64,000 nucleotides of DNA from Phycisphaerae bacterium (GTDB taxonomy: Bacteria > Planctomycetota > Phycisphaerae > Phycisphaerales > UBA1924): NCBI GenBank assembly GCA_030429705.1, contig JAUIES010000001.1, positions 1,488,001-1,552,000 of the forward strand, given 5' to 3'. Made by a program: the position numbers and the translations under genes. Positions within the stretch are counted from its first letter, which is position 1; each line of letters starts with the position of its first letter. Positions 37,776 through 47,732 of the stretch are shown here, piece after piece. The notes below the pieces were generated by a model. It was given only the letters and a program-made list of their open reading frames with translations. It ran no database searches and was not told the origin of the DNA.

Positions 37776-39032
37776 TCAACACGAAGTCAACGAACTGACA
37801 TCCACGACATACATTGCACGCGAGCCATCCATCGCTGAATCGATACAGACTTTGGTCGCGTCGTGGTTGAAGCGCGGATGGAGATCGACTCGGATCGGGC
37901 CGTCAAGTGTGCGGGGTGTGGCATATCGGCCGATCTCAAAGCCCTGATTCACGCGGCAATCCCAAAGAAACAACGGCTGGCGGCTCTTCAAATCGGGGTA
38001 CCCATCAGTCAACACCCATCGACCCGGCTCAAGGCCGCCTCTGTTAAAAGTGCAGTGCCCGTCGCAGGTCAGTTCGCCCTTGGCAAATGGTGTTGGCGAT
38101 GGCGCATTTGCGTCTCGCACATCTATATCACGAACCAGCAGGTACGAGTCCTTCATGATCTTGTTCATGAGAAAGCGTGGCTTGCCAAGGGCGTAGTACA
38201 CGGGCTTGAGGCCGCGCCTCGCGATCGTCATCATCTGTTGGGTGGGGGTTTTCTTGGTGTTTGCAGAGCCAAGCAACGCTCGCTTGCCAGCCCACGCGAG
38301 GATGGTGTCATCGTCGCGCCAGTCGTAGTGGCTGCACATGCCCTCGAACAACAGGCGAATATCCGAACCATCGCGCGCAGCGGTGAACAGGCGTGATTGC
38401 AGAATGCCATCGGCCCGCTCGAATCGGTGCATGAAGCAAAAACGCGTGCCAGATGGGTTGAACATCAGGTGGTTGACATGCTGGTGTAGCGATCCGCCTG
38501 CGCGGTCAGAGCCGTCAGCGGTGATTCGGTCGAGTTGGTCGATCGAAATGATGAGCGAAGGCTGTCCGTCTTCGATCCTGTCGATGCCATCATTGGTGGG
38601 GGATGGGTCGGCAGGATTCGGATCAACAATCGCCGGGTACCCATACTCCGGGCGCAGCCTTGAGAGTCGACCAAAGCCAACCGCAAGTTGTCCGCCGTCG
38701 TTGTGCTCGGTGTACACCAGAGGCTGTTGGTCAAGACGGTTCCATGCCGGCGAGTCGCTGAGGGCGATCCACCGGAGCATCGCTCCTTGTTGCCAGTTCC
38801 AGGCATCAGACTCGCCAATTGTCACGAAACTGGGGCTTTCAGTGTCCCACCCCTCGATGAATCCGATTTCGGCCACATCATCCGTCGTTGGGAAACGATC
38901 GCAAAACTTCGCGCGATGGGCGAGGAGTTTGGTGCCATCCGGCGACCACGGGCACTTGTCGTAGTATCCGAACCAGTAGTGCCAGCCGTCGTTTGGCGAA
39001 GCGCGACGGATTGGCAAGTGGTTCACTTTCAC
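37776..39032 (-). CDS. Beta-propeller-like protein at the end of the polysaccharide operon
   Basis: A 418-residue protein with no signal peptide. Repeated strands with 'WSPDGTKLLAHRAKFC', 'FNPSGTRFCFMHRFER', 'DWRDDDTILAWAGKR' and 'HPRFNHDATKVCIDSAMDG' suggest a six- or seven-bladed propeller, recalling oligogalacturonate-lyase-type folds. It contains His-rich spots (GGSLHQHVNH, GMCSHYDW, CDGHCTF) that could hold a metal. Its ATG overlaps the stop of the acetyltransferase gene (ATGA). It may act on or sense the glycan made by the operon; this is not shown. It is the most 3' gene of a nine-gene run. Confidence 0.68.
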   Translation of the reverse strand: MKVNHLPIRRASPNDGWHYWFGYYDKCPWSPDGTKLLAHRAKFCDRFPTTDDVAEIGFIEGWDTESPSFVTIGESDAWNWQQGAMLRWIALSDSPAWNRLDQQPLVYTEHNDGGQLAVGFGRLSRLRPEYGYPAIVDPNPADPSPTNDGIDRIEDGQPSLIISIDQLDRITADGSDRAGGSLHQHVNHLMFNPSGTRFCFMHRFERADGILQSRLFTAARDGSDIRLLFEGMCSHYDWRDDDTILAWAGKRALLGSANTKKTPTQQMMTIARRGLKPVYYALGKPRFLMNKIMKDSYLLVRDIDVRDANAPSPTPFAKGELTCDGHCTFNRGGLEPGRWVLTDGYPDLKSRQPLFLWDCRVNQGFEIGRYATPRTLDGPIRVDLHPRFNHDATKVCIDSAMDGSRAMYVVDVSSLTSC

Positions 39033-39592
39033 AGCGTATCGTCTTTGAGCACTCGATCACCGATCGGTTTGGCAGGTGTCCCGACGCAGACCTTCCAGGT
39101 GGGCAAATCGTTGAACACGCTCGAGCGCGCGCCGACGACAGTGCCCTCTGCAATCGTCACGCCCGGCCCGACAAAGCAATCCGCAGCCACCCAGCAGTTC
39201 TCGCCAATCGTGATCGGGCTCGGCTCAAGCGGGAAGTTGCGATGTTCGTGATCGTGCGTCGCACCGCATAAATAGGTGTACTGACTGATGGTCGTGTTGG
39301 CACCAATGCTGATCGGCGCGACGCAGTAGCAGTCAACATCATCGGCAAGCGTCGCATAGTCGCCCATGGTCAGGTTCCACGGTGCCCAGATGCGCACGCG
39401 TGGGCAGACGCGTGCTTTGAGTGAGACCTGGCCGCCGAACAGCCTGAGGATGCGAGCCCGGATGCTGTGAAACGGGCGAGGCACAAGCCGAAACACCGTG
39501 GCCTGCACCAGGTTCCAGACGATTCGGCCGAGTTTGTTGCGCGTCGAATGCGGACTCGGTTTGTCAGCGATATCGACACCGTCTGTCGTCAC
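39029..39592 (-). CDS. WcaF-like hexapeptide-repeat O-acetyltransferase (copy 1)
   Basis: A 187-residue left-handed beta-helix acetyltransferase related to the colanic-acid WcaF group. An amphipathic N-terminus (RIVWNLVQATVFRLVPRPFH) is followed by hexapeptide turns: APWNLTMGDYATLADDVDCY, VAPISIGANTTISQYTYLCG, then the catalytic-His region THDHEHRNFPLEPSPITIGE and GPGVTIAEGTVVGARSSVFN. It would transfer acetyl from acetyl-CoA to a sugar hydroxyl. GTG 39592, with GAAGGG 6 bases upstream and a GTGA overlap with the previous stop, is preferred over TTG 39607. It is one of three adjacent paralogues. Confidence 0.86.
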   Translation of the reverse strand: MTTDGVDIADKPSPHSTRNKLGRIVWNLVQATVFRLVPRPFHSIRARILRLFGGQVSLKARVCPRVRIWAPWNLTMGDYATLADDVDCYCVAPISIGANTTISQYTYLCGATHDHEHRNFPLEPSPITIGENCWVAADCFVGPGVTIAEGTVVGARSSVFNDLPTWKVCVGTPAKPIGDRVLKDDTL

Positions 39593-40203
39593 ATTGCACC
39601 CTTCCAACGCGGCGCTTCGTCCTTACCGGTTCGGTCCAGAATCGGGCGGTCGCGCCGTGGCTTGGCGGGTTCGCCCGTACAGATGGTCCATGCGGGTAAC
39701 TCACGGTCAACCAGGCCGCGAGCGCCGACAACCACGCCTTCCTGAATCGTGACGCCCGGCAGGACCGTGACATCCGCCGCCAGCCAGGCATCCTTTTGAA
39801 TACGAATTGGGGCTGTGTAAATGCGGCGCTGCGGATCAAGTGGGTCCTCAGCCTGCGAAAAGACCTTGTTGTACTGGCTGATTGTGCAGTACGGCCCGAC
39901 TTCGACTCGGCTACGACAGATCAAATGAGCGTGGTCGCCCACCGCCGACAACTTGCCCATCGTCAAATTCCAAGGCCGATCGATGCGAGCACTTGCACGA
40001 ATCTTGACCGTGGGGTGGAGCTTGGCGCCGCACAGCCGAAGTGTCGTACAACGGAGCGCGTACCAGTTGTGGAAACTGTACTTGCACACCCATCGCCCAA
40101 GCCCGTGCCAGAGCAACGCCCGCCAGAACGGATCACCCGGTCGGTGGCTCGGCAGTTCAGCCCGCGGATGACGCAGCGGTGCATTGGGGCTTTGAATATT
40201 CAT
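39589..40203 (-). CDS. WcaF-like hexapeptide-repeat O-acetyltransferase (copy 2)
   Basis: A 204-residue paralogue of its two neighbours. It shares the basic N-terminal helix (VCKYSFHNWYALRCTTLRL), DRPWNLTMGKLSAVGDHAHL and the turns VEVGPYCTISQYNKVFSQAE and LPGVTIQEGVVVGARGLVDR. The catalytic-His region is altered: the THDHEH of copy 1 reads AEDPLDPQRR here, so the equivalent histidine is absent and activity on the same kind of substrate is doubtful. ATG 40203 overlaps the preceding stop by four bases. It could be a diverged or structural partner of the other two. Confidence 0.84.
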   Translation of the reverse strand: MNIQSPNAPLRHPRAELPSHRPGDPFWRALLWHGLGRWVCKYSFHNWYALRCTTLRLCGAKLHPTVKIRASARIDRPWNLTMGKLSAVGDHAHLICRSRVEVGPYCTISQYNKVFSQAEDPLDPQRRIYTAPIRIQKDAWLAADVTVLPGVTIQEGVVVGARGLVDRELPAWTICTGEPAKPRRDRPILDRTGKDEAPRWKGAM

Positions 40204-40865
40204 GACGAAGACTCGGCAGCTTGGTTCAGTCTTGCCTGGCGATGCTGTTCGATCTCATGATTGACCGCTTCGATTTCATCGGCCTCGGCTTCAGCCGGAT
40301 CAAACGGCCGGGCGGGGTTACCGCGCAGCGAGATTCTGTCAGGGAAGTTCTTATACACGCTCGCCCTCGGCCACACCAGGCAATCATCGCCCAGTTCAAT
40401 GCCGGGTGCGATGTATGAATCAGTCCCGATGAGACACCGGTCACCAATCGTGATCGGGCGACGCACCAAGGGGAAAGATGGGTCTGACATGTCGTGTGTG
40501 CCGGCGCAGAGATGGGCTCGTGAATCGAGCACACAGTCATCGCCGATGGAGATCTGGCCGAGCGAATAGATCACAGCACCCGATCGCACACGCACATTGT
40601 CGCCGATATCGACATGCCACGGTATCGTGACCTCAACGCCCGTTGCAAAGGTGCAGTTCTTGCCGACCCGTCCACCGAACAGCCGAATCAACCGTGGACG
40701 CAATCGGGGGAAGGGCACCCACGCCATACGGCCAAAGGTCATCCAGATGGTGCGCGCGATGTTCTGTTTGAGCGTCCACGGCGTCTTTCGCGTCAGCGCC
40801 GTATCGGCAGCAAACTCTTCAGGCATCGGCGACGCATCGTGGGTGGGTTCTGTGGTCACAGTCAT
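40200..40865 (-). CDS. WcaF-like hexapeptide-repeat O-acetyltransferase (copy 3)
   Basis: A 221-residue paralogue and the most upstream of the three. Hexapeptide turns include GRVGKNCTFATGVEVTIPWH, YSLGQISIGDDCVLDSRAHL and APGIELGDDCLVWPRASVYK. The active-site histidine region CAGTHDMSDPSFPLVRRPIT is intact, and a GNPARPFDP end follows, as in WcaF. A 25-residue polar C-terminal helix (ADEIEAVNHEIEQHRQARLN) is extra. It lies 18 bases after the sulfotransferase gene and overlaps the next gene by 4 bases. Confidence 0.86.
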   Translation of the reverse strand: MTVTTEPTHDASPMPEEFAADTALTRKTPWTLKQNIARTIWMTFGRMAWVPFPRLRPRLIRLFGGRVGKNCTFATGVEVTIPWHVDIGDNVRVRSGAVIYSLGQISIGDDCVLDSRAHLCAGTHDMSDPSFPLVRRPITIGDRCLIGTDSYIAPGIELGDDCLVWPRASVYKNFPDRISLRGNPARPFDPAEAEADEIEAVNHEIEQHRQARLNQAAESSS

Positions 40866-40883
40866 GAATCCTATCCGGCGAAA

Positions 40884-41738
40884 TTACCAGTCGTACCCGA
40901 GCCGTTCGAGCGTGGGCAGCATGTGCTCTTTGACAAGGTCGAGTGTGCTCTGATCAACTGCGTCACGCCACTTGTCTGCGCGCGTCGGGTCAGCGGTCTT
41001 TTCTGCAAACTTGATCACGGGTTCAGGGTCCGCCAACTCTGCAAATGTACAAACTTCGGTCATGACTTCACGAGGTCTGACCATGAGATCTTCATATTTG
41101 AATCGAAACACACCGGCACCAGCCGCATCAAGTGCGTCAGCATCATCCAGAGCGCATCCGATGGTGCCTGCCCATTGCTTGGCGAGAATGACTTCGGTTG
41201 GATCGTTCTTGACCCAGTCACGCCAGCCCGGCGGCCGCGGGCCCCAGAAGTTCAACTTCTTGCCGGTCATGCGCCGGTAGACCGTACCAACAGTTTGCCT
41301 CGCATACGCCGGCCATTCGGTCACCGGCGTCTCTCTCGCTCGCATCATGACCCGTTTGAATGGCACGCCCGAAGTCATGATCTCGTCGGTCGAGCGGAAA
41401 ACAGACCGACCATCACGAATGACAAGCAGAATACGAGCGTTTGGATACACCGCACGGATAAAGGGCAACCGCAGACAGTTACTCGGTGTTTTCTCCGCGA
41501 GCCGTTCTTTCCCTTCACGAGCGACAAACGCCGCGAAGGTGCTCCGGATGTGTTGTTTGACACGGTCGGTGGCTTCTCGCGTGCCGAGGACATCATCGGG
41601 TGTGTAACTGTTCTTCCAGGTCCAGACATGGCGAGGCTCGACCCAGTACGCCAGCCTCGGATGCTGACTCAACACTTCGCCCAGCCAGGTGGTGCCCGAG
41701 CGATGCGTACCAACAAGGATGATCGGGTCCGTAGTCAA
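40884..41738 (-). CDS. Sulfotransferase (PAPS-dependent)
   Basis: A 284-residue cytoplasmic enzyme of the Sulfotransfer family. The 5'-phosphosulfate loop is VGTHRSGTTWLGEVLSQHPR near residues 9-28, and the 3'-phosphate-binding part is ILLVIRDGRSVFRSTDEIM near residue 100. It would move sulfate from PAPS to a sugar hydroxyl or amine. Its ATG overlaps the stop of the deacetylase by four bases. Two sulfotransferases in the same run and a third just beyond it imply several sulfation positions on one product. Confidence 0.86.
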   Translation of the reverse strand: MTTDPIILVGTHRSGTTWLGEVLSQHPRLAYWVEPRHVWTWKNSYTPDDVLGTREATDRVKQHIRSTFAAFVAREGKERLAEKTPSNCLRLPFIRAVYPNARILLVIRDGRSVFRSTDEIMTSGVPFKRVMMRARETPVTEWPAYARQTVGTVYRRMTGKKLNFWGPRPPGWRDWVKNDPTEVILAKQWAGTIGCALDDADALDAAGAGVFRFKYEDLMVRPREVMTEVCTFAELADPEPVIKFAEKTADPTRADKWRDAVDQSTLDLVKEHMLPTLERLGYDW

Positions 41739-42649
41739 GCGACTTGTTCCTTGTCGGTTCCTGCAAGAGCGCCGATCTCATTCTCGAGGACGGCCCGGCA
41801 AGTATCAAAACGGTGAGCAGCAAGAAGCCGGTCTAACTTGTTGGCGGTGCTGGCTGTGCCCACATAGCATTTGAAGTACCGGTGGGGGGGCATCCGCACT
41901 TTCGGGCAGTCTGGTGCGAAGTCTCGCGGATGCAAATACACGACCGTCGGCCGACCCGCAGCAAGTTCGGCTTGCAACCCTTGCTCGATCAATGCGTACG
42001 GCAGCAGACGCATGTAGCCACCACCCGAGTAGCACATCGCTTTCTTGACAGGTCCTATCCCGACCGGCGCAACCGACATGGGCAACTCTGGCAACTGTCG
42101 GCCCGACGGGGTTGTGATCATATGAATGCCCGGCGGACACGCATACCCCCCGTGCCCGCGCTTGGCTGGGAACAGGCTCGCGTCATAAAGCAATCCGAGG
42201 TCCGCGAGGACATCGAACGCCCACTCGGTCCCGTGCGTGATGCTGAACGAAGGCGCGCGGAACCCCGCGACCTTGTGTCCGGAAGCCTGTTCGATGATGT
42301 CAATCGCCTGCCGCATGTCGGCATGAAACTCGTCGGGTGAAAGTTCATAGACCTTGCGATGCCAGTACGAATGCACACCGATTTCATGCCCAGCATCGGC
42401 GATGCGTCGCACCATGTCGGGGTGGCGATCTGCAACCCATCCGAGCAGGAAAAAGGTCGCGTGTGTCGAACGGCGCGCACAAATCTCGAGTATCAGATCT
42501 GTGTACCGTTCGACGAGTGAACTCTCTTCATGCAACCCTGGCCAGAGTTCCGGATCTTCGACAGCCTTGATCTCGACAATGTGAAACCAGTCTTCGATAT
42601 CGAAGGAAAGCGCATGGGTCACAGACTGGTTGACAGTGTCTTTGGACAT
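41735..42649 (-). CDS. Polysaccharide deacetylase with DUF3473 tail (XrtA/PEP-CTERM-associated type)
   Basis: A 304-residue NodB-type deacetylase. The metal-binding Asp17 and Asp20 are in SFDIEDWFH, and His93 and His97 are in IGVHSYWHRKVY; the RAPSFSI region is also present. The C-terminal part YLHPRDFAPDCPKVRMPPHR is the DUF3473 block found with exosortase-linked exopolysaccharide loci. No exosortase gene is in the window. It would remove N-acetyl groups from a polysaccharide, freeing amines for sulfation or other changes. Its start codon shares one base with the stop of the formyltransferase gene. Confidence 0.9.
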   Translation of the reverse strand: MSKDTVNQSVTHALSFDIEDWFHIVEIKAVEDPELWPGLHEESSLVERYTDLILEICARRSTHATFFLLGWVADRHPDMVRRIADAGHEIGVHSYWHRKVYELSPDEFHADMRQAIDIIEQASGHKVAGFRAPSFSITHGTEWAFDVLADLGLLYDASLFPAKRGHGGYACPPGIHMITTPSGRQLPELPMSVAPVGIGPVKKAMCYSGGGYMRLLPYALIEQGLQAELAAGRPTVVYLHPRDFAPDCPKVRMPPHRYFKCYVGTASTANKLDRLLAAHRFDTCRAVLENEIGALAGTDKEQVA

Positions 42650-43542
42650 CAGAAAAATTTATGGCCCGCAGCCTTGAACCGCTGTACATCCTGCTTAGTC
42701 GGCATGGAAAAATGCGACATGTTCTCGATCGGGTTTGGGATCAACGCCGGATTGCCCGCCTCGACCGCGCGAACGGTCTCGATAATCGCTTCGGCGGCAA
42801 GGTCTTTGGACCGTGCCATGACATCTTCAAGCGTGTCATGAGGGTGCACCCGGTACCGCCGCTGAATAACAATCGGGCCGTTGTCCAGTTTCTTGTCAAC
42901 ATAGTGGACACTGACCCCCCCCTCAGTCTCGTTGTTGGCAAGGGTCCAGAAACTCGGCATCAGCCCACGATAGTGTGGCAAGAGTGCCCCGTGACAGTTG
43001 ACGATGCCCCATGGTGTCTGTTCGCGCAACTTGCGCTTGTAGAGCTGCGTGCCCGAGATCGACACAATGAAATCAACTTCGTTCTCGCGCAGCATGTCGA
43101 GAAACGGCTCAGCGTTCACATCGGGCATGTCGTGCACAGGAACACCATACTTTTTCGCGACAGCCCGCACCGAATGGCAACGACGGGTCGATCCCATGAT
43201 GTCGTTGACGACCTTGGCCTGCAGTTTCTTCCAGATGTAGTTGCGGAACTTCCATTGGAAATACCACGGGCCGTACATGTTGAGCAGGTCCATCGCGGTC
43301 TGCACGATGGTTCGTTTGCCCTGCGCGACTGACTGGATGTTGATCCCGACCGTCGAGTCCGCATACTCGCGCAGATACTTGTCGAGCACCTTGGGCAGAT
43401 AGAACGGGTCGTTCTGGATGAACACATACTTCTTGAGCGGGCGACCGGCGGGGTCCATGCGTGGCACCGGATCCAGGTTCCCGTCAATCGTCGGATGTTG
43501 CGTCGCCGCTGCAGTCTCGGGTTGTGTCAGTGTCTCGCTCAA
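42649..43542 (-). CDS. Formyltransferase-family enzyme of the polysaccharide operon
   Basis: A 297-residue enzyme of the Fmt/PurN-type formyltransferase fold. The signature NCHGALLPHYRGLMPSFW supplies the catalytic Asn and His of the family's N...H motif, and DNGPIVIQRRYRV the catalytic Asp. The N-terminal 60 residues are an extra lead with no known motif. In polysaccharide clusters such enzymes N-formylate amino sugars using formyl-tetrahydrofolate, as in Vi- and O-antigen sugars. It lies between a deacetylase, which could supply the free amine, and a sulfotransferase. Confidence 0.82.
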   Translation of the reverse strand: MSETLTQPETAAATQHPTIDGNLDPVPRMDPAGRPLKKYVFIQNDPFYLPKVLDKYLREYADSTVGINIQSVAQGKRTIVQTAMDLLNMYGPWYFQWKFRNYIWKKLQAKVVNDIMGSTRRCHSVRAVAKKYGVPVHDMPDVNAEPFLDMLRENEVDFIVSISGTQLYKRKLREQTPWGIVNCHGALLPHYRGLMPSFWTLANNETEGGVSVHYVDKKLDNGPIVIQRRYRVHPHDTLEDVMARSKDLAAEAIIETVRAVEAGNPALIPNPIENMSHFSMPTKQDVQRFKAAGHKFF

Positions 43543-44411
43543 GCGCGATCTCCCTGCGGGTCATTGTGAACCCAATCGTGTGTCGTTTCGTAACCCAGTT
43601 CGATCAACAGGTCGCCCGCTTCCTGATCGAAGAACTGGCAATCGTCTTCAGAAAATGCAGTGCGCCATTTCACAGGTTCCAACCCGTTGCCTCGGCCGGA
43701 TATGTTCGTGCTCTCGTCACGCCCTGTCAGTCGCGCGACCCAATGTTCAAACCGCGTCTTCGTCGGCGCTGGCAAGAGTGGTTCAGTCCAGAGCGGCTTG
43801 TGACCCAGCGCTTCGCCGATCTGTTCGATCTGCTGGCGCGTGTTCTTCACAGTGTCTTCGAATCGAATCGCATGCACGCCTGCGTGCCCGACCCACGCCC
43901 GGACATGATCAGCCCATGCACGCACACGCGATCGGCCGTCGCCGTGGTCTTCTCGAATGAAATCGGAGATCGTCGACGAGGCACTCGAATCAAACGACTG
44001 CCGAAATCGCTGCAGGCTACACAGCACACTTCGACCGTCGCGATAGCAGTAAAACACCGTCGATCGAGCTATCAGATCGTCGATATACGCACGGTGCTGC
44101 GGAGCGGTGCGATGCATGTCGGGGGTGTTGTGTGTCTTCAAGCACGGCCGCTTGATCGCACGCAACACGCGATCACATTCGCCCGGTTGACCAGGCCGAT
44201 GATGCTCAGCGTTCAGTCGATCGATTGAAAAGTACAGCGAATCATGCGGATTGACAAACCGTCCTGCGCGCCCCTGACACTGTTTGAACTGTCGTCGAAG
44301 CAGATCCATGAACAGGTGCGTGCCGCTTCGTTCATGGCTCGCTACAACGATCGGCCCTGCGCCGACAATTGATGTCCCTTTGTGTTCAGTTTGTGCAGGA
44401 GCAGCATGCAT
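43539..44411 (-). CDS. Sulfotransferase (PAPS-dependent), second copy
   Basis: A 290-residue Sulfotransfer-type protein. The phosphosulfate-binding loop is VVASHERSGTHLFMDLLRRQ near residue 23, and the 3'-phosphate region is STVFYCYRDGRSVLCSLQRF near residue 115. RFEDTVKNTRQQIEQIGEAL further on is usual for the family. It shares little detailed similarity with the copy at 40884, so the two probably act at different positions. Its start follows the GT4 gene by 6 bases and its end overlaps the formyltransferase start by 4. Confidence 0.83.
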   Translation of the reverse strand: MHAAPAQTEHKGTSIVGAGPIVVASHERSGTHLFMDLLRRQFKQCQGRAGRFVNPHDSLYFSIDRLNAEHHRPGQPGECDRVLRAIKRPCLKTHNTPDMHRTAPQHRAYIDDLIARSTVFYCYRDGRSVLCSLQRFRQSFDSSASSTISDFIREDHGDGRSRVRAWADHVRAWVGHAGVHAIRFEDTVKNTRQQIEQIGEALGHKPLWTEPLLPAPTKTRFEHWVARLTGRDESTNISGRGNGLEPVKWRTAFSEDDCQFFDQEAGDLLIELGYETTHDWVHNDPQGDRA

Positions 44412-44417
44412 GAACAG

Positions 44418-45725
44418 TTACTCCGGTTGAACGCGAGAAGCAGGTGTACGCAACGGGATCGCCCGTTCAACCACATCACAGAAACGACCTCGCAGTGCGA
44501 CCATCCCCAGTTCGTCGTCAATCACTTTCTTCGCACGCTCGCCCATCGCGACAAGGTCGGCTTTGGGTGTCGCTGCTATCTCATTGATCACAGCGATCGC
44601 ACCATCCACATCGCCATGCTTGATATGCCAACCGATATGGTGATCGCGAATGAGATCTGACACATGGCATGGGTCCGGGCCGAGCAACAAGATCGGCCTC
44701 GCAACCGCCATCGCGCCATAGATCTTACAGGGATGAACCACGCCCACCACATCATCGCCGACGCTCACCAGGTGAACATCCGCAGCCGACAGCGAATACT
44801 TGATCCTGTCGAAAGGCTGATAGGGCAGATCGGTAATGTTGGTCGGATTGTGCGTTTCGATGGTGTGCCGCACATCTTTCTTGCCGACACCGCCGCCGAT
44901 GAAAAAGAACTTGAGGTTCTCTTGGTCCTGCATGCGAACAGCCGCATCGAGGACGGTCACCACCGGCGTTGAAAAACCGTGGTTGCCCGAGTACATGATG
45001 CAGAACTTGCCATCGTCACCCGAGCCAAGCCCATGCTCCTCACGAAAGGGGTTGCTCTCGTGTGGTACAACCTCAAGCGCCGAATCGTGCGGCCAGGGCG
45101 GCATGATGTCCATCTTGTCGCTGACATCCCGCTTCTTATTCACACGATCGGCCATAAAACGATCGAGCGCGACCACAGCGGTGGCGCGTTTGAGGATGTA
45201 CCGATTGAACGCGTCGAACGCTTTGGCAATCGGTGAGGTTGCCTTGAGTTTGCCCAACTCGACCATCTGATCGGGGTTCAGATCCATGACCCAGTACACG
45301 AGAGGCACACGCCTGACGAATCGAACGATCAAGGCTGCGACCGAAGCCATCGGGGGAGAGGTGCTCACCAGCACGCCGCGCAACTTCGATGTAAACACAC
45401 CCCGCATCGCACACTGCACGAGGAAAATCAATTGCGCAAGAACACGCAACGGAATCGACTTCTTGCCAAAACTCGACAGCGGCATGCGTCGAATCTCGAC
45501 ACCATCACGGGTCTCGCGCAGCGGATACTTGATCGTCGGGTCGTCATACCCGCGGGCAGACGCATACACGATGACTTTGTATCCGCGCCGTGCAAGTTCG
45601 GCAGCCGCATCATGCATGTGCTGTCCGACACTCGCAGGGTCAGGCACATAGACCTGACTGATCACCAGCAGGGTGTCATCGCTTTTGCCACCCGATTCGG
45701 CATTGCTTGCGCTGTGCTCGCTCAT
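44418..45725 (-). CDS. GT4-family (WbuB/WcaL-like) glycosyltransferase
   Basis: A 435-residue GT-B fold enzyme. The N-terminal domain has VISQVYVPDPASVGQHMHDA, whose open Gly-rich loop binds the acceptor lipid side. The C-terminal domain has CIMYSGNHGFSTPVVTVLDA and the nucleotide-sugar region GDDVVGVVHPCKIYGAMAVA, with the Glu-x7-Glu of GT4 replaced at its first position. SD-like GAAGGGA precedes the ATG by 8 bases, so it is conventionally led. It heads the nine-gene operon and is its only glycosyltransferase. The sugar donor is unknown. Confidence 0.84.
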   Translation of the reverse strand: MSEHSASNAESGGKSDDTLLVISQVYVPDPASVGQHMHDAAAELARRGYKVIVYASARGYDDPTIKYPLRETRDGVEIRRMPLSSFGKKSIPLRVLAQLIFLVQCAMRGVFTSKLRGVLVSTSPPMASVAALIVRFVRRVPLVYWVMDLNPDQMVELGKLKATSPIAKAFDAFNRYILKRATAVVALDRFMADRVNKKRDVSDKMDIMPPWPHDSALEVVPHESNPFREEHGLGSGDDGKFCIMYSGNHGFSTPVVTVLDAAVRMQDQENLKFFFIGGGVGKKDVRHTIETHNPTNITDLPYQPFDRIKYSLSAADVHLVSVGDDVVGVVHPCKIYGAMAVARPILLLGPDPCHVSDLIRDHHIGWHIKHGDVDGAIAVINEIAATPKADLVAMGERAKKVIDDELGMVALRGRFCDVVERAIPLRTPASRVQPE

Positions 45726-45824
45726 CGCACGCTTCCCTTCATTCGTGAGTCATGAACGGTCGATACGAGCCTTTTCGGATAGACTCTTCGGCCTCTGGCA
45801 AGCGTATTCGAACCAAATCGACCT

Positions 45825-45830
45825 GAAGGA
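45825..45830 (+). promoter_or_regulatory. Shine-Dalgarno site deciding the start of the divergent sulfotransferase gene
   Basis: AAGGAG lies 8 bases before GTG 45839, making this GTG the start although the conserved protein begins right after it. Confidence 0.6.
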
Positions 45831-45838
45831 GTTCCTTC

Positions 45839-46675
45839 GTGTTTCCGAACTATCTTGGCATCGGTGTTTTTCGCAGCGGCTCGACCTGGCTGCATGAACT
45901 GCTCGACACGCACCCGGACGCATTCGTCCCATCGAAGCGGAAGGAAGTGTTCTGGTTCTCCAACAACTACGACAAGGGTCGAGACTGGTACGAGTCGTTC
46001 TTCCCCGATAGCGAGACCGAAGGCAAGATCGCCGTCGGCGAGGTCACCCCAGGCTATTTCTACTCGGCTGACGCCGCCCAGCGCATTCGCGATGAACCAA
46101 CGATCAAACGCTTGATTCTGATCTTGCGTGATCCGGCCAATCGCGCGTTTTCCAACTACACACGCCGAATCAAGATCGACAATTACCAGGGAGATTTCCG
46201 TTCGTTCCTGCAAGACTACCCCGACGGCGGCATGAATCTCAGTCGGTACGCCGACCACCTCGAACGGTACCGATCCATGTTCTCGCAAGAGGAACTGCTC
46301 ACCCTCATCTACGAGGATCTGTTCGCGGATGTCGTTGCCTCGCGTGAGCGGATCGCTGCCCACCTCGGCCTTGATCCCGCGCGATTCCCCGAAGACGCGG
46401 GCAAAAAGCGTGTGAACGCCGTCGTGGTGCCCAAGTACGGGGGGGCGTACAAAATCATGTCGAAGATCGGACGCAAGTTGCGCAAAGCCGATCTTGACTT
46501 TCTGCCCAACCTCATCGGCCGAAAACTCGGCATGAAGCGCATGTTCGGTACACGCGCCGCACCCATGCCCAAACTCGGCGCGGCAGACCGCGCGTGGTTC
46601 ATCGAGCAGGTCGCGGACGATATCGACCGGGTGGAGGCGCAACTGGATGTTGACCTTTCTTCCTGGCGGACCTGA
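45839..46675 (+). CDS. Sulfotransferase, heparan-sulfate N-sulfotransferase-like type
   Basis: A 278-residue protein. The opening LGIGVFRSGSTWLHELLDTH is the phosphosulfate loop. RKEVFWFSNNYDKGRDWYESFF follows, which is the KE...F...G..WY pattern of NDST-type sulfotransferases. The 3'-phosphate part is LILILRDPANRAFSNYTRRI near residue 100. It would sulfate an amino group or hydroxyl of a glycan. It is on the opposite strand to the operon and divergent from the GT4 gene, and convergent with the epimerase gene, whose stop lies 15 bases away. The GTG start has AAGGAG. Confidence 0.87.
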   Translation: MFPNYLGIGVFRSGSTWLHELLDTHPDAFVPSKRKEVFWFSNNYDKGRDWYESFFPDSETEGKIAVGEVTPGYFYSADAAQRIRDEPTIKRLILILRDPANRAFSNYTRRIKIDNYQGDFRSFLQDYPDGGMNLSRYADHLERYRSMFSQEELLTLIYEDLFADVVASRERIAAHLGLDPARFPEDAGKKRVNAVVVPKYGGAYKIMSKIGRKLRKADLDFLPNLIGRKLGMKRMFGTRAAPMPKLGAADRAWFIEQVADDIDRVEAQLDVDLSSWRT

Positions 46676-46690
46676 CGGACGCTCGCCCGC

Positions 46691-47692
46691 TCAGGCCGAA
46701 ACCACCGCGGGCTTGTTGCCGTACTTGGCTTGATACTCACCCAAAATCCAGTCGTAGGTCTTCCGCATGCCGTCGAGCAGCGTGATGGAAGGCTCCCACC
46801 CGAGGTATTGCTGGATGAGGGTGTTGTCGCTATTGCGCCCGCGCACGCCCTTCGGCGCGTCAAGCTTGTAGTTACGGTTCAACTTGATATCCGCAAACCC
46901 TTCGACGATGTCGACCAACTGGTTGATACTCACCAGTTCGCTCGAACCGAGGTTCAGTGGCTCGAGAATGTCTGAGTGCGTGATCTTGTTGATGCCGTTG
47001 AGGCAGTCGTCAATGTACATGAACGAGCGGGTCTGCTCGCCATCACCCCAGATTTCAATGTTGTGATCGCCGGTGAGTTTCGCCTGGATAACCTTACGAC
47101 AGATCGCAGCCGGCGCTTTCTCGCGTCCACCCTCCCAGGTGCCTTCCGGACCATACACATTGTGGAATCGTGCAATACGGGTGTGCAGCCCGAAGTCTTC
47201 ACGGAAGTGGCGGCACATGCGCTCGCTGAACAGTTTTTCCCAGCCATAGCCGTCCTCCGGCATCGCGGGATACGCATCCGCTTCGACAAGCGCCGTCACC
47301 GCAGCATCGGTCTGCTTGTCCGCGTTGTACACACAGGCGGATGATGAGTAGAAGAACTTGTCGACACCCTTCTCTTTCGCGGCCATGAGCATGTGCGTCG
47401 TCGTCAGCACGCTCAACATGCAGAGTGCCTTGTTGTTTTCGATGAACCCCATGCCGCCCATGTCAGCAGCGAGCTGGTAGACCTCGTCAACGCCGTCGCA
47501 TGCTTCGAGACAAGTCTGTTTGTCCTTCAGGTCGCCGACGACATTCTCAGCGTCCGCGTGCACCTGATACCACTGGTCCTGAGACTTGATATCCACACAA
47601 CGAACTCGGAACCCTTCTGAGAGGAGTTTGGCGACCAGATGACCACCGATGAATCCTCCGCCTCCGCCAACGACTGCCAGTTTACCGCTCAT
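46691..47692 (-). CDS. GDP-mannose 3,5-epimerase-like SDR enzyme
   Basis: A 333-residue extended short-chain dehydrogenase. The NAD site is VVGGGGGFIGGHLVAKLL and the catalytic Tyr149-x3-Lys153 is in GYGWEKLFSE. Cys120 (SSACVY) and the lysine of GGREKAPAAICRK match the acid/base pair of plant GDP-mannose 3,5-epimerase, as do DGEQTRSFMYIDD and GVRGRNSDNTLI. That enzyme makes GDP-L-galactose and GDP-L-gulose. Start 47692 has GGGAGAAG upstream; the TTG at 47707 does not. It would supply an L-sugar to the surface glycan, which is inference. Confidence 0.84.
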   Translation of the reverse strand: MSGKLAVVGGGGGFIGGHLVAKLLSEGFRVRCVDIKSQDQWYQVHADAENVVGDLKDKQTCLEACDGVDEVYQLAADMGGMGFIENNKALCMLSVLTTTHMLMAAKEKGVDKFFYSSSACVYNADKQTDAAVTALVEADAYPAMPEDGYGWEKLFSERMCRHFREDFGLHTRIARFHNVYGPEGTWEGGREKAPAAICRKVIQAKLTGDHNIEIWGDGEQTRSFMYIDDCLNGINKITHSDILEPLNLGSSELVSINQLVDIVEGFADIKLNRNYKLDAPKGVRGRNSDNTLIQQYLGWEPSITLLDGMRKTYDWILGEYQAKYGNKPAVVSA

Positions 47693-47732
47693 ACAAACTT
47701 CTCCCAAAAGACTGAGGCCTTGAATCTCGCGA

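Follow-up and report, generated by a model that had tools for sequence, protein, structure and literature searches.

A minus-strand operon in the window (the whole 64,000-nucleotide stretch of Phycisphaerae DNA analysed here) sets a putative N-formyltransferase (FT) directly beside a DUF3473 deacetylase (DAC), among genes for sulfotransferases, acetyltransferases and a single glycosyltransferase, and this raises the question of what the two enzymes do together. From comparisons of sequence we consider it probable that DAC frees the amine of a sugar and that FT caps it with a formyl group, that the product is a tailored surface glycan, and that the cap is interchangeable in evolution.

Layout and conservation of the operon

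The nine genes run from 45725 down to 37776 (Table 1), and the successive gaps between them in the ORF list are +6, -4, -1, -4, +18, -4, -19 and -4 bases. The preliminary description, in which the genes overlap or lie 18 bases or less apart, is confirmed in this respect, with gaps from -19 to +18. Its family labels also hold for the GT4 glycosyltransferase, the two sulfotransferases, the formyltransferase, the DUF3473 deacetylase and the three WcaF-like hexapeptide proteins; the label of the last gene as propeller-like is without support, as its protein yields zero matches to Pfam or NCBIfam and zero PDB sequence matches below E = 0.3, and its AlphaFold model has a pLDDT of 42. That gene also adjoins AT3 in loci L034, L038 and L200.

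Table 1. Genes of the operon and its two neighbours, with positions in the window
Gene	Position	Strand	Basis
GT4 glycosyltransferase, WcaI-like (chassis gene)	44418..45725	-	PF13579, PF13439, PF00534
ST1, sulfotransferase	43539..44411	-	PF13469 35.6 bits, PF00685 28.7 bits
FT, N-formyltransferase, ArnA/Fmt fold	42649..43542	-	PF00551
DAC, DUF3473 NodB/CE4-type deacetylase	41735..42649	-	PF01522 + PF11959
ST2, sulfotransferase	40884..41738	-	PF13469 83 bits (also PF00685)
AT1, WcaF-like hexapeptide acetyltransferase, THD motif	40200..40865	-	NF007797
AT2, WcaF-like hexapeptide protein, AED replacing THD	39589..40203	-	NF007797
AT3, WcaF-like hexapeptide acetyltransferase, THD motif	39029..39607	-	NF007797
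Conserved protein without family assignment (earlier 'propeller-like')	37776..39032	-	synteny
EPI, GDP-mannose 3,5-epimerase homologue (chassis gene upstream of GT4)	46691..47707	-	PDB 8sg0
ST3, sulfotransferase, adjoining on the opposite strand	45839..46675	+	PF00685 63 bits

The order EPI-GT4-ST1-FT-DAC-ST2-AT1-AT2-AT3-propeller, flanked by pepA and trpS, recurs in four other genomes (L162, L163, L164 and L021), with protein identities of 66-83% across the ten genes. This recurrence indicates that the operon is more than a chance arrangement; the tailoring operon with one glycosyltransferase, which had been described from the window by itself, is thus syntenic in planctomycete relatives. GT4, FT and DAC make up a smaller core, more widespread than the full nine-gene order. 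Genes in the relatives were called with a home-made codon-usage caller and tblastn, as longest-ORF calling proved unsuitable for G+C-rich DNA, where real genes were masked by long shadow ORFs; the codon-usage caller fails on L191, L206, L241 and others, for which tblastn and plain ORFs were used.

GT4 scores 130 bits against the WcaI-family model NF007640, under its cut-off of 276. The gene upstream of this type of GT4 encodes a GDP-mannose 3,5-epimerase at 21 of 80 FT loci and a GDP-fucose-synthase-like protein at none. The neighbour of GT4 in the window, previously noted as GDP-mannose-epimerase-like, proved to be a homologue of the same enzyme (best PDB matches 8sg0 and 2c59, E about 1e-96; next other enzyme 8e-27), and we take the family's product to be the GDP-L-galactose/L-gulose donor. 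Judged from this pairing of donor and glycosyltransferase, EPI would supply GDP-L-galactose and GT4 would probably transfer L-galactose from it. The contig also carries, at a distance of about 200 kb, genes for Poly_export, an exosortase and DUF3485, which makes it plausible that the operon decorates a glycan made elsewhere.

Of the loci seen, only those of the window and its four nearest syntenic relatives have ST1 placed between GT4 and FT. The WcaF-family model NF007797 is the best NCBIfam model for AT1, AT2 and AT3 (189, 136 and 132 bits, all under the cut-off of 192). The histidine of the THD motif, presumably a functional residue of WcaF-type acetyltransferases, is kept in AT1 and AT3 and replaced in AT2, so AT2 is possibly not an acetyltransferase.

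The formyltransferase and the deacetylase

FT belongs to the formyltransferase superfamily of ArnA/Fmt/WbkC fold (PF00551, 83.5 bits against a cut-off of 26.1). Its best PDB sequence match is ArnA (4e-18), which is also the best Foldseek match of its predicted structure (pLDDT 84; 1.7e-16, TM about 0.6), and N182-x-H184...D220, which we take to be the catalytic residues, are invariant in 27 sequences. FT carries an extra helical insert at about residues 79-115, and in most aligned rows residues 88-116 are basic and aromatic. We rejected this insert as an amphipathic membrane helix, its hydrophobic moment being not high (rank 203 of 280 within the protein), and membrane binding by it is only a guess.

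DAC is a NodB/CE4 and DUF3473 protein (PF01522, 77.8 bits, cut-off 23.1; PF11959, 94.7 bits, cut-off 29.6) whose sequence has no evident signal peptide. Residues D17, E19, D20, H93, H97, R131 and H240, presumably metal-binding or catalytic, are invariant in 17 sequences. Against TIGR03006, the model for the XrtA-system deacetylase, DAC scores 237.8 bits, which is below the cut-off of 276.2; the DAC of a kin locus, L036, scores 334.9 bits and lies above the cut-off.

We found that FT and DAC occur together. Across 400 sampled Phycisphaerales genomes, a DAC of at least 50% identity is present in 64 of the 65 that have an FT ortholog and in 32 of the 335 others (1e-48 by Fisher's exact test, kinship ignored). 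Distant FTs (25-33% identity) are accompanied by a DAC in 59 of 61 genomes, and it adjoins FT in 40 of the 41 for which a DAC position is listed; this list leaves out G203, G263 and G219, which gave weak matches over residues 125-285 only. The FT-bearing genomes in which no DAC was found are two with a distant FT and one with an FT ortholog; in G350, FT is a 38-residue fragment and a DAC fragment was counted as present. Of the 77 loci that have room downstream, 64 show DAC adjacent to FT, and where it is not, a DAC was found elsewhere in 14 of 14 genomes tested (13 at 59-71% identity, one at 38%). The adjacency extends to Bacteroidota loci, at FT identities of 34-37%, and the cultured Larkinella rosea and Spirosoma arboris have such an FT-DAC pair. 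These locus counts are not independent, since the 80 public loci overlap in part with the genomes of other loci and L088 and L089 are twin records. Co-occurrence and adjacency thus uphold the idea, drawn earlier from the window, that deacetylase and formyltransferase are functionally linked, and such partner behaviour fits two consecutive steps. Only one of the 80 FT loci, and not that of the window, yielded a DegT aminotransferase (in a search without a positive control, with 10 of the 80 loci under 8 kb), so transamination next to FT is an unlikely source of the amine.

In the mechanism that we propose, the operon would act on a surface glycan that is still cytoplasmic and probably lipid-linked, adding residues to it and tailoring them. 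DAC, to judge from its family and residues, would strip the acetyl group from an N-acetylated sugar in the glycan to which GT4 adds its residue, and FT, to judge from its fold and catalytic triad, would cap the freed amine with a formyl group from 10-formyl-tetrahydrofolate. The WcaF-type transferases and the sulfotransferases may afterwards add O-acetyl and O-sulfate groups, respectively.

Putative cap cassettes in relatives

Among 87 GT4-bearing relatives, the locus contains FT in 32, parts of an FkbH/ACP/GNAT cassette in eight, an E1/lipoyl-hexapeptide cassette (a 2-oxoacid-dehydrogenase E1 with a lipoyl-domain hexapeptide acyltransferase) in five and a SAM methyltransferase in four; the count of five rises to eight when G029, G220 and G253 are assigned by hand, their cassettes lying beyond the counted distance. 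None of these loci has two cap cassettes. The non-formyl cassettes accompany a DUF3473 deacetylase, which in the E1/lipoyl genomes (n = 8) is divergent, with 36-39% identity to the window DAC, and none of the 20 genomes with such a cassette has an FT at E <= 1e-22. Among the 30 cassette-free relatives, one has a DAC of at least 50% identity.

The final table has 82 rows, of which 51 have both cassette and DAC, 29 have neither and two are discordant, one in each direction; it scores the 36-39% DAC of the eight E1/lipoyl rows as present and the 36-43% DAC of seven no-cassette genomes as absent, both of which favour the reading as a swap. When only DACs of at least 50% are counted, there are 43 cassette genomes with and nine without a DAC, against one with and 29 without among no-cassette genomes (P = 3e-13); any DAC at 1e-30 gives 51 and one against eight and 22 (P = 2e-12), and leaving out the E1/lipoyl rows gives 43 and one against one and 29 (P = 3e-18). 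Two rows were dropped before the counts, G387 (a short GT4 piece) and G174 (another GT4 type, second tree), and four were left unlabelled (G008, G244, G247 and G152, whose contigs end close behind GT4). The GT4 tree provides four independent contrasts, as pairs on well-supported branches, and all four agree (sign test, P = 0.125).

Counter-evidence also exists: seven genomes have a DAC of at least 50% identity with no cassette seen adjoining, divergent DAC paralogs are isolated in several genomes, and in G115 the DAC and the FkbH cassette are on different contigs. The sugar N-formyltransferases known to us act on nucleotide sugars, which also counts against the step proposed for FT. Furthermore, the atom modified by the methyltransferase or by the hexapeptide enzyme could be an oxygen instead, and the methyltransferase is possibly an ordinary extra gene. 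Different fates of the amine nevertheless seem to exist between species, as exchanged cassettes: the same chassis and deacetylase would have come to work with FkbH/ACP/GNAT, with an E1/lipoyl-hexapeptide acyltransferase or with a methyltransferase.

Alternatives and known systems

ArnA, ArnC and ArnD belong to the pathway that adds 4-amino-arabinose to lipid A. By the same logic, FT would temporarily block a nucleotide amino sugar, GT4 would transfer it and DAC would deformylate it to leave a free amine. The trio of glycosyltransferase, same-fold formyltransferase and deacetylase-superfamily enzyme is alike in the two systems; in sequence as well as in fold, the closest match to FT is the formyltransferase domain of ArnA, and the ArnD model matches DAC, if weakly (E = 0.0013). 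However, DAC scores only 18 bits against that model and 238 bits against the model of the XrtA-system deacetylase, and as a DUF3473 protein it is retained in relatives with the three non-formyl cassettes where FT is absent, which a deformylase leaves unexplained. With aminotransferases also rare beside FT (by the uncontrolled search above) and none beside the FT of the window, we regard this alternative as unlikely.

The module might otherwise be a factory for a linking sugar, in which an N-capped sugar anchors exosortase-processed proteins as the Wbp/Vim sugar of Porphyromonas gingivalis and Tannerella forsythia does for type IX cargo. There, the CE4-type deacetylase VimE is proposed to free the 2-amine and its partner VimA, a FemAB match that transfers either Ser or Gly, to re-acylate it; vimF, a glycosyltransferase gene, lies downstream of vimE (PMC7468200). 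The same account remarks on PEP-CTERM clusters related to Wbp/Vim, and Veith et al. speculate in it that proteins related to VimA and found near exosortases may have such a role. Both systems pair a deacetylase with a proposed re-capping partner near a glycosyltransferase gene, but the partner is of FemAB type there and a formyltransferase, FkbH/ACP/GNAT, E1/lipoyl-hexapeptide or methyltransferase here, where DegT aminotransferases are nearly absent beside FT. DAC is also kin to the deacetylase of XrtA/PEP-CTERM exopolysaccharide clusters, a family common to both, with L036 above the TIGR03006 cut-off; the window DAC, however, is below it, and the operon has no exosortase, the genome's own being about 200 kb away. 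Although an exosortase was found in 61 of 61 genomes searched, a feature universal in the set has no power to test the link, and 31 of the 61 lack any DAC match. We judge this explanation improbable.

ST3, earlier called NDST-like, is nearer in PDB to 3rnl (3.5e-18) and to heparan sulfate 3-O-sulfotransferase 3A1 (7.6e-17) than to NDST (2e-10); it has no match in the four syntenic relatives and, across the searched loci, none above 40% identity, and probably stands outside the conserved module. The competition between formylation and N-sulfation of the freed amine within one cell, which the preliminary description drew from the deacetylase, formyltransferase and NDST-like genes together and which this distant similarity and three sulfotransferase genes at the locus might favour, is highly improbable, as ST3 is better matched by 3-O-sulfotransferases, lies on the other strand and is missing from the syntenic relatives, and FT and DAC behave as partners.

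Deacetylation followed by capping, as we propose for DAC and FT, has a counterpart in the tailoring of Nod factors by NodB, NodA and NodS, in which the sulfotransferases NodH and NoeE and the acetyltransferase NodL also take part. In one account, NodB deacetylation is followed by N-capping by various enzymes, and N-methylation occurs only after deacetylation (PMC5080398). ST2 weakly matches the NoeE model (29 bits, cut-off 500). The Nod factor, however, is a NodC-made chitin oligomer with a fatty acyl cap, unlike the formyl cap and the chassis of GT4 and GDP-mannose epimerase here. The logic of deacetylating and re-capping is thus already known (Nod factors) or proposed (type IX linking sugar), with one cap each. 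What the present loci add is that, within one bacterial order, the putative caps that appear with a single chassis number at least four, are chemically unrelated and never occur two to a locus. A search of titles and abstract openings in an open-access library listed no paper on the pairing of a DUF3473 deacetylase with a formyltransferase.

In a broader and distinctly more tentative reading, which we consider possible but doubtful, a deacetylase and a swappable cassette N-cap lipid-linked glycans, perhaps yielding a variable sugar to which exosortase-sorted proteins would be attached. The caps would be formyl (from folate), ACP-borne acyl (by FkbH or AMP-ligase), lipoyl-passed acyl and methyl, and in the lipoyl route the acyl group would come straight from the lipoyl domain fused to the hexapeptide transferase, loaded by its own E1. 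This broader reading would include, to our knowledge, the first formyltransferase that acts on an assembled glycan and not on a nucleotide sugar.

The natural cap swaps suggest the role of the deacetylase, and the cap cassettes are ready-made parts for altering sugar amides. Our explanation would assign a partner and a role to the DUF3473 deacetylases that adjoin formyltransferases in Phycisphaerales and Bacteroidota.

The operon and its gene order

The nine minus-strand genes reported in the preliminary description are present as claimed from 45725 to 37776, with spacings of +6, -4, -1, -4, +18, -4, -19 and -4. The families named there also stood: a GT4 glycosyltransferase, two sulfotransferases (ST1, ST2), a formyltransferase (FT), a DUF3473 deacetylase (DAC) and three WcaF-like hexapeptide proteins (AT1-AT3); the exception is the last gene, whose 'propeller' label found no match in family searches and for which structure prediction was unusable. 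One hexapeptide protein, AT2, lacks the THD histidine, which we take to be the catalytic residue of these proteins. In AT2 itself (39589-40203) AED replaces THD; the motif is ADD in L162 and AHD in more-distant orthologs in L048, L176 and L187. The adjoining epimerase is a homologue of GDP-mannose 3,5-epimerase (GME). Among the matches listed, the closest named relatives of this 3.49 Mb genome (G000, window on contig C4) are Phycisphaerales metagenome assemblies. Sixteen PF00685 sulfotransferase matches occur in the genome, some clustered outside the window, and genes for Poly_export, exosortase, DUF3485 and a large, weakly AAA-matching protein stand in a row about 200 kb from the operon (L147, G000:C4:1742800-1753300), a candidate export machine.

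A search of relatives for synteny recovered the full order (epimerase, GT4, ST1, FT, DAC, ST2, AT1, AT2, AT3, propeller, with pepA/trpS flanks) in four other genomes (L162, L163, L164, L021) at 66-83% identity; three of these also have public records (L041, L086, L042). ST3, the adjoining plus-strand sulfotransferase, has no match in any of the four. Three further genomes (L176, L187, L197), two with the locus truncated at a contig end, keep GT4-FT-DAC-ST2-AT1-AT2 with ST1 missing. The AT3 and propeller genes adjoin a distant-type FT trio on the opposite strand in L034 and L038, and occur together without FT in L200; such recurrence away from the full operon suggests that its tailoring half is a movable set of its own.

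The formyltransferase-deacetylase core and a possible inserted element

Among public FT loci from the best 80 of 140 relatives, FT identity is 58-80% in 67 loci (L041-L106, L120), mostly labelled Phycisphaerales, and then falls sharply to 34-37% in 13 (L107-L119), mostly Bacteroidota. Of these 80, 77 loci have 800 bases of room after FT, and 64 of the 77 have a co-directional DAC following at a distance of up to about 640 bases; a query-detected GT4 lies no more than 700 bases before FT at 57 of 75. The 18 GT4 misses comprise the 13 distant loci (other glycosyltransferases upstream of FT in L107, L111 and L118, a GT4 about 1 kb upstream in L114), three full operons in which ST1 separates GT4 from FT (L041, L042, L086), and two loci with GT4 at greater distance (L051, L085). 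Where DAC does not adjoin FT (13 FT loci and L113), it is found elsewhere in the genome in 14 of 14 cases, 13 times at 59-71% identity and for L113 at 38%. Across 60 relatives, DAC at ≥57% identity occurs in 11/11 FT-ortholog genomes versus 1/49 others (G023); across 400 sampled genomes of the order, DAC at ≥50% occurs in 64/65 versus 32/335. The lone FT-ortholog genome without DAC, G278, is an assembly 84% complete with FT on a 3.8 kb contig.

A gene for a TIGR02436 four-helix bundle (S23/IVP-like), searched for with two queries, lies between FT and DAC in 16 of 16 matched loci from about nine independent genomes. Of 12 scanned stretches, 11 have it flanked by inverted repeats of 13-43 nt that are spaced about 380-470 nt and have arms mostly of short tandem units; the remaining stretch, L032, is from the same genome as L103, where the repeats are present. 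Among 18 copies from six genomes, the flanking repeats exceed all 100 shuffles (crude, two-base-block) in eight, three lying between FT and DAC and five at other sites, and the repeat units differ; the remaining 10 fall under the threshold, several having too little flank. Size and layout resemble 23S rRNA intervening sequences, one of which is given as 428 nt in the cited text (PMC4990558), but the present candidate element sits inside a protein-coding operon. Gene and repeats may form an unrecognised element family.

TIGR02436 genes by locus
Feature	Locus	Coordinates	Genomes
FT-DAC gap	L021	10659-11128	
FT-DAC gap	L023	8878-9352	
FT-DAC gap	L026	688-1170	
FT-DAC gap	L030	2163-2663	
FT-DAC gap	L044	10848-11301	
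FT-DAC gap	L046	5587-6100	
FT-DAC gap	L052	10928-11370	
FT-DAC gap	L103	10782-11267	
FT-DAC gap	L106	397-904	
Copies elsewhere whose repeats exceed all 100 shuffles	L260, L268, L271, L273, L275		G025, G032, G018

Exchange of cassettes beside the deacetylase

The sole exception among the 60 relatives, G023 (L151), carries FkbH, ACP and GNAT-like genes exactly between GT4 and DAC, and we therefore examined 87 GT4-bearing relatives. Their loci hold FT (32), FkbH/ACP/GNAT (8), an E1 with a lipoyl-hexapeptide transferase (5), a methyltransferase (4) or no such cassette (38); adding G029, G220 and G253, where the cassette is farther off with DAC adjoining, changes E1/lipoyl to 8 and none to 35. No locus of the 87 has two cassettes, and FT at E ≤ 1e-22 was found in none of 20 genomes with a non-formyl cassette. 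DAC is inside the GT4 locus in six of the eight FkbH-type genomes, about 2.3 kb past the GNAT gene in G191 and on another contig in G115. Pfam matches in scanned representatives were E1_dh, Transket_pyr and Transketolase_C with Biotin_lipoyl and Hexapep for the E1/lipoyl type, and methyltransferase or FkbH_N, PP-binding and GNAT for the others. A one-chain 2-oxoacid dehydrogenase E1 adjoins the lipoyl-hexapeptide acyltransferase fusion, within a glycan locus, in L153 (6593-9587), L154 (10776-14046), L201, L219, L253 and L254; the arrangement suggests that acyl groups pass directly from lipoamide to a sugar. Two further DAC loci (L240, L242) hold AMP-ligase-like, ACP-like, short-chain reductase and GNAT-like proteins, assigned by eye, the last with a tblastn match in L242 only.

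In the final 82-row table, 51 genomes have cassette and DAC, 29 neither, one a cassette only (G278) and one DAC only (G108) (P = 7e-20, Fisher's exact test, kinship ignored), with the divergent E1/lipoyl-type DAC (36-39% to the window's) scored present and seven no-cassette genomes with a 36-43% DAC scored absent. Counts of DAC present/absent with and without a cassette are 43/9 and 1/29 for DAC at ≥50% only (3e-13), 51/1 and 8/22 for any DAC at 1e-30 (2e-12), and 43/1 and 1/29 with E1/lipoyl rows removed (3e-18). Corrected for kinship, four supported independent contrasts are all concordant (P = 0.125). The cassette label changes at least 7-8 times on the GT4 tree; cassette type is stable inside clades and has been swapped several times. 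DAC at ≥50% occurs in 24 of 274 non-FT genomes, with a cassette of FkbH type (8), methyltransferase (4) or ligase type (2), and in one case each with a GNAT-like piece at a contig edge (G404), an FT fragment (G350) or the DAC itself at a contig edge (G310); no cassette was found in seven of the 24, including G134, whose opposite strand gives a weak FT-like match (25%) that was left uncounted.

Probable order of reactions and the sugar donor

FT is closest to ArnA in sequence and predicted fold, differing by an additional helical insert, and its N182, H184 and D220 are invariant in 27 sequences reaching Bacteroidota. Key DAC residues are kept in 17 sequences; D20 is replaced by E in 6 of 19 rows (four E1/lipoyl, two non-planctomycete). 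As no signal peptide is evident on reading the DAC sequence, both enzymes are probably cytoplasmic.

Known sugar formyltransferases get their amines from DegT aminotransferases. With two own-genome DegT proteins as queries, DegT is absent from the window and matched in one of the 80 FT loci (L080; best 80 of 140), in a search without positive control and with 10 loci under 8 kb. This scarcity beside FT, together with the cassette swaps, makes deacetylation followed by capping more likely than a formyl group that blocks the amine temporarily.

Donor genes pair with GT4 type in these 80 loci, 40 of which are uninformative: window-type GT4 occurs with GME in 21 loci and with Fcl in none, and other GT4s with a GDP-L-fucose-synthase-like gene in 19 and with GME in none. 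Seven such synthase-like genes score 259-286 bits to NF047922, short of its cut-off (500), and a tested neighbour in L247 is a GDP-mannose 4,6-dehydratase over its cut-off. The pairing points to L-Gal or L-Fuc as the sugar added by GT4, and to an amino sugar of other origin.

Parallels appear in the literature. Veith et al. propose that VimE takes off a C-2 acetyl and that Ser or Gly is then attached there by VimA; they also describe PEP-CTERM loci pairing a deacetylase with a VimA/FemAB relative (PMC7468200); PF01522 deacetylases are among the correlated families of the 2006 PEP-CTERM paper (PMC1569441). For NodB/NodA/NodS, the cited text has deacetylation preceding N-methylation, with none seen otherwise (PMC5080398). 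For Pontiella (class Kiritimatiellae), another paper reports sulfated glycosaminoglycan-like exopolymers and sulfotransferase genes (PMC7356697). At the level of titles and abstract openings, no description of an FT-deacetylase pairing was found in the open-access papers searched. The operon is real and conserved. What is more general in it is the core, a deacetylase plus a swappable, putative amine-capping cassette; this core most likely follows the known deacetylate-and-cap logic in a new form.
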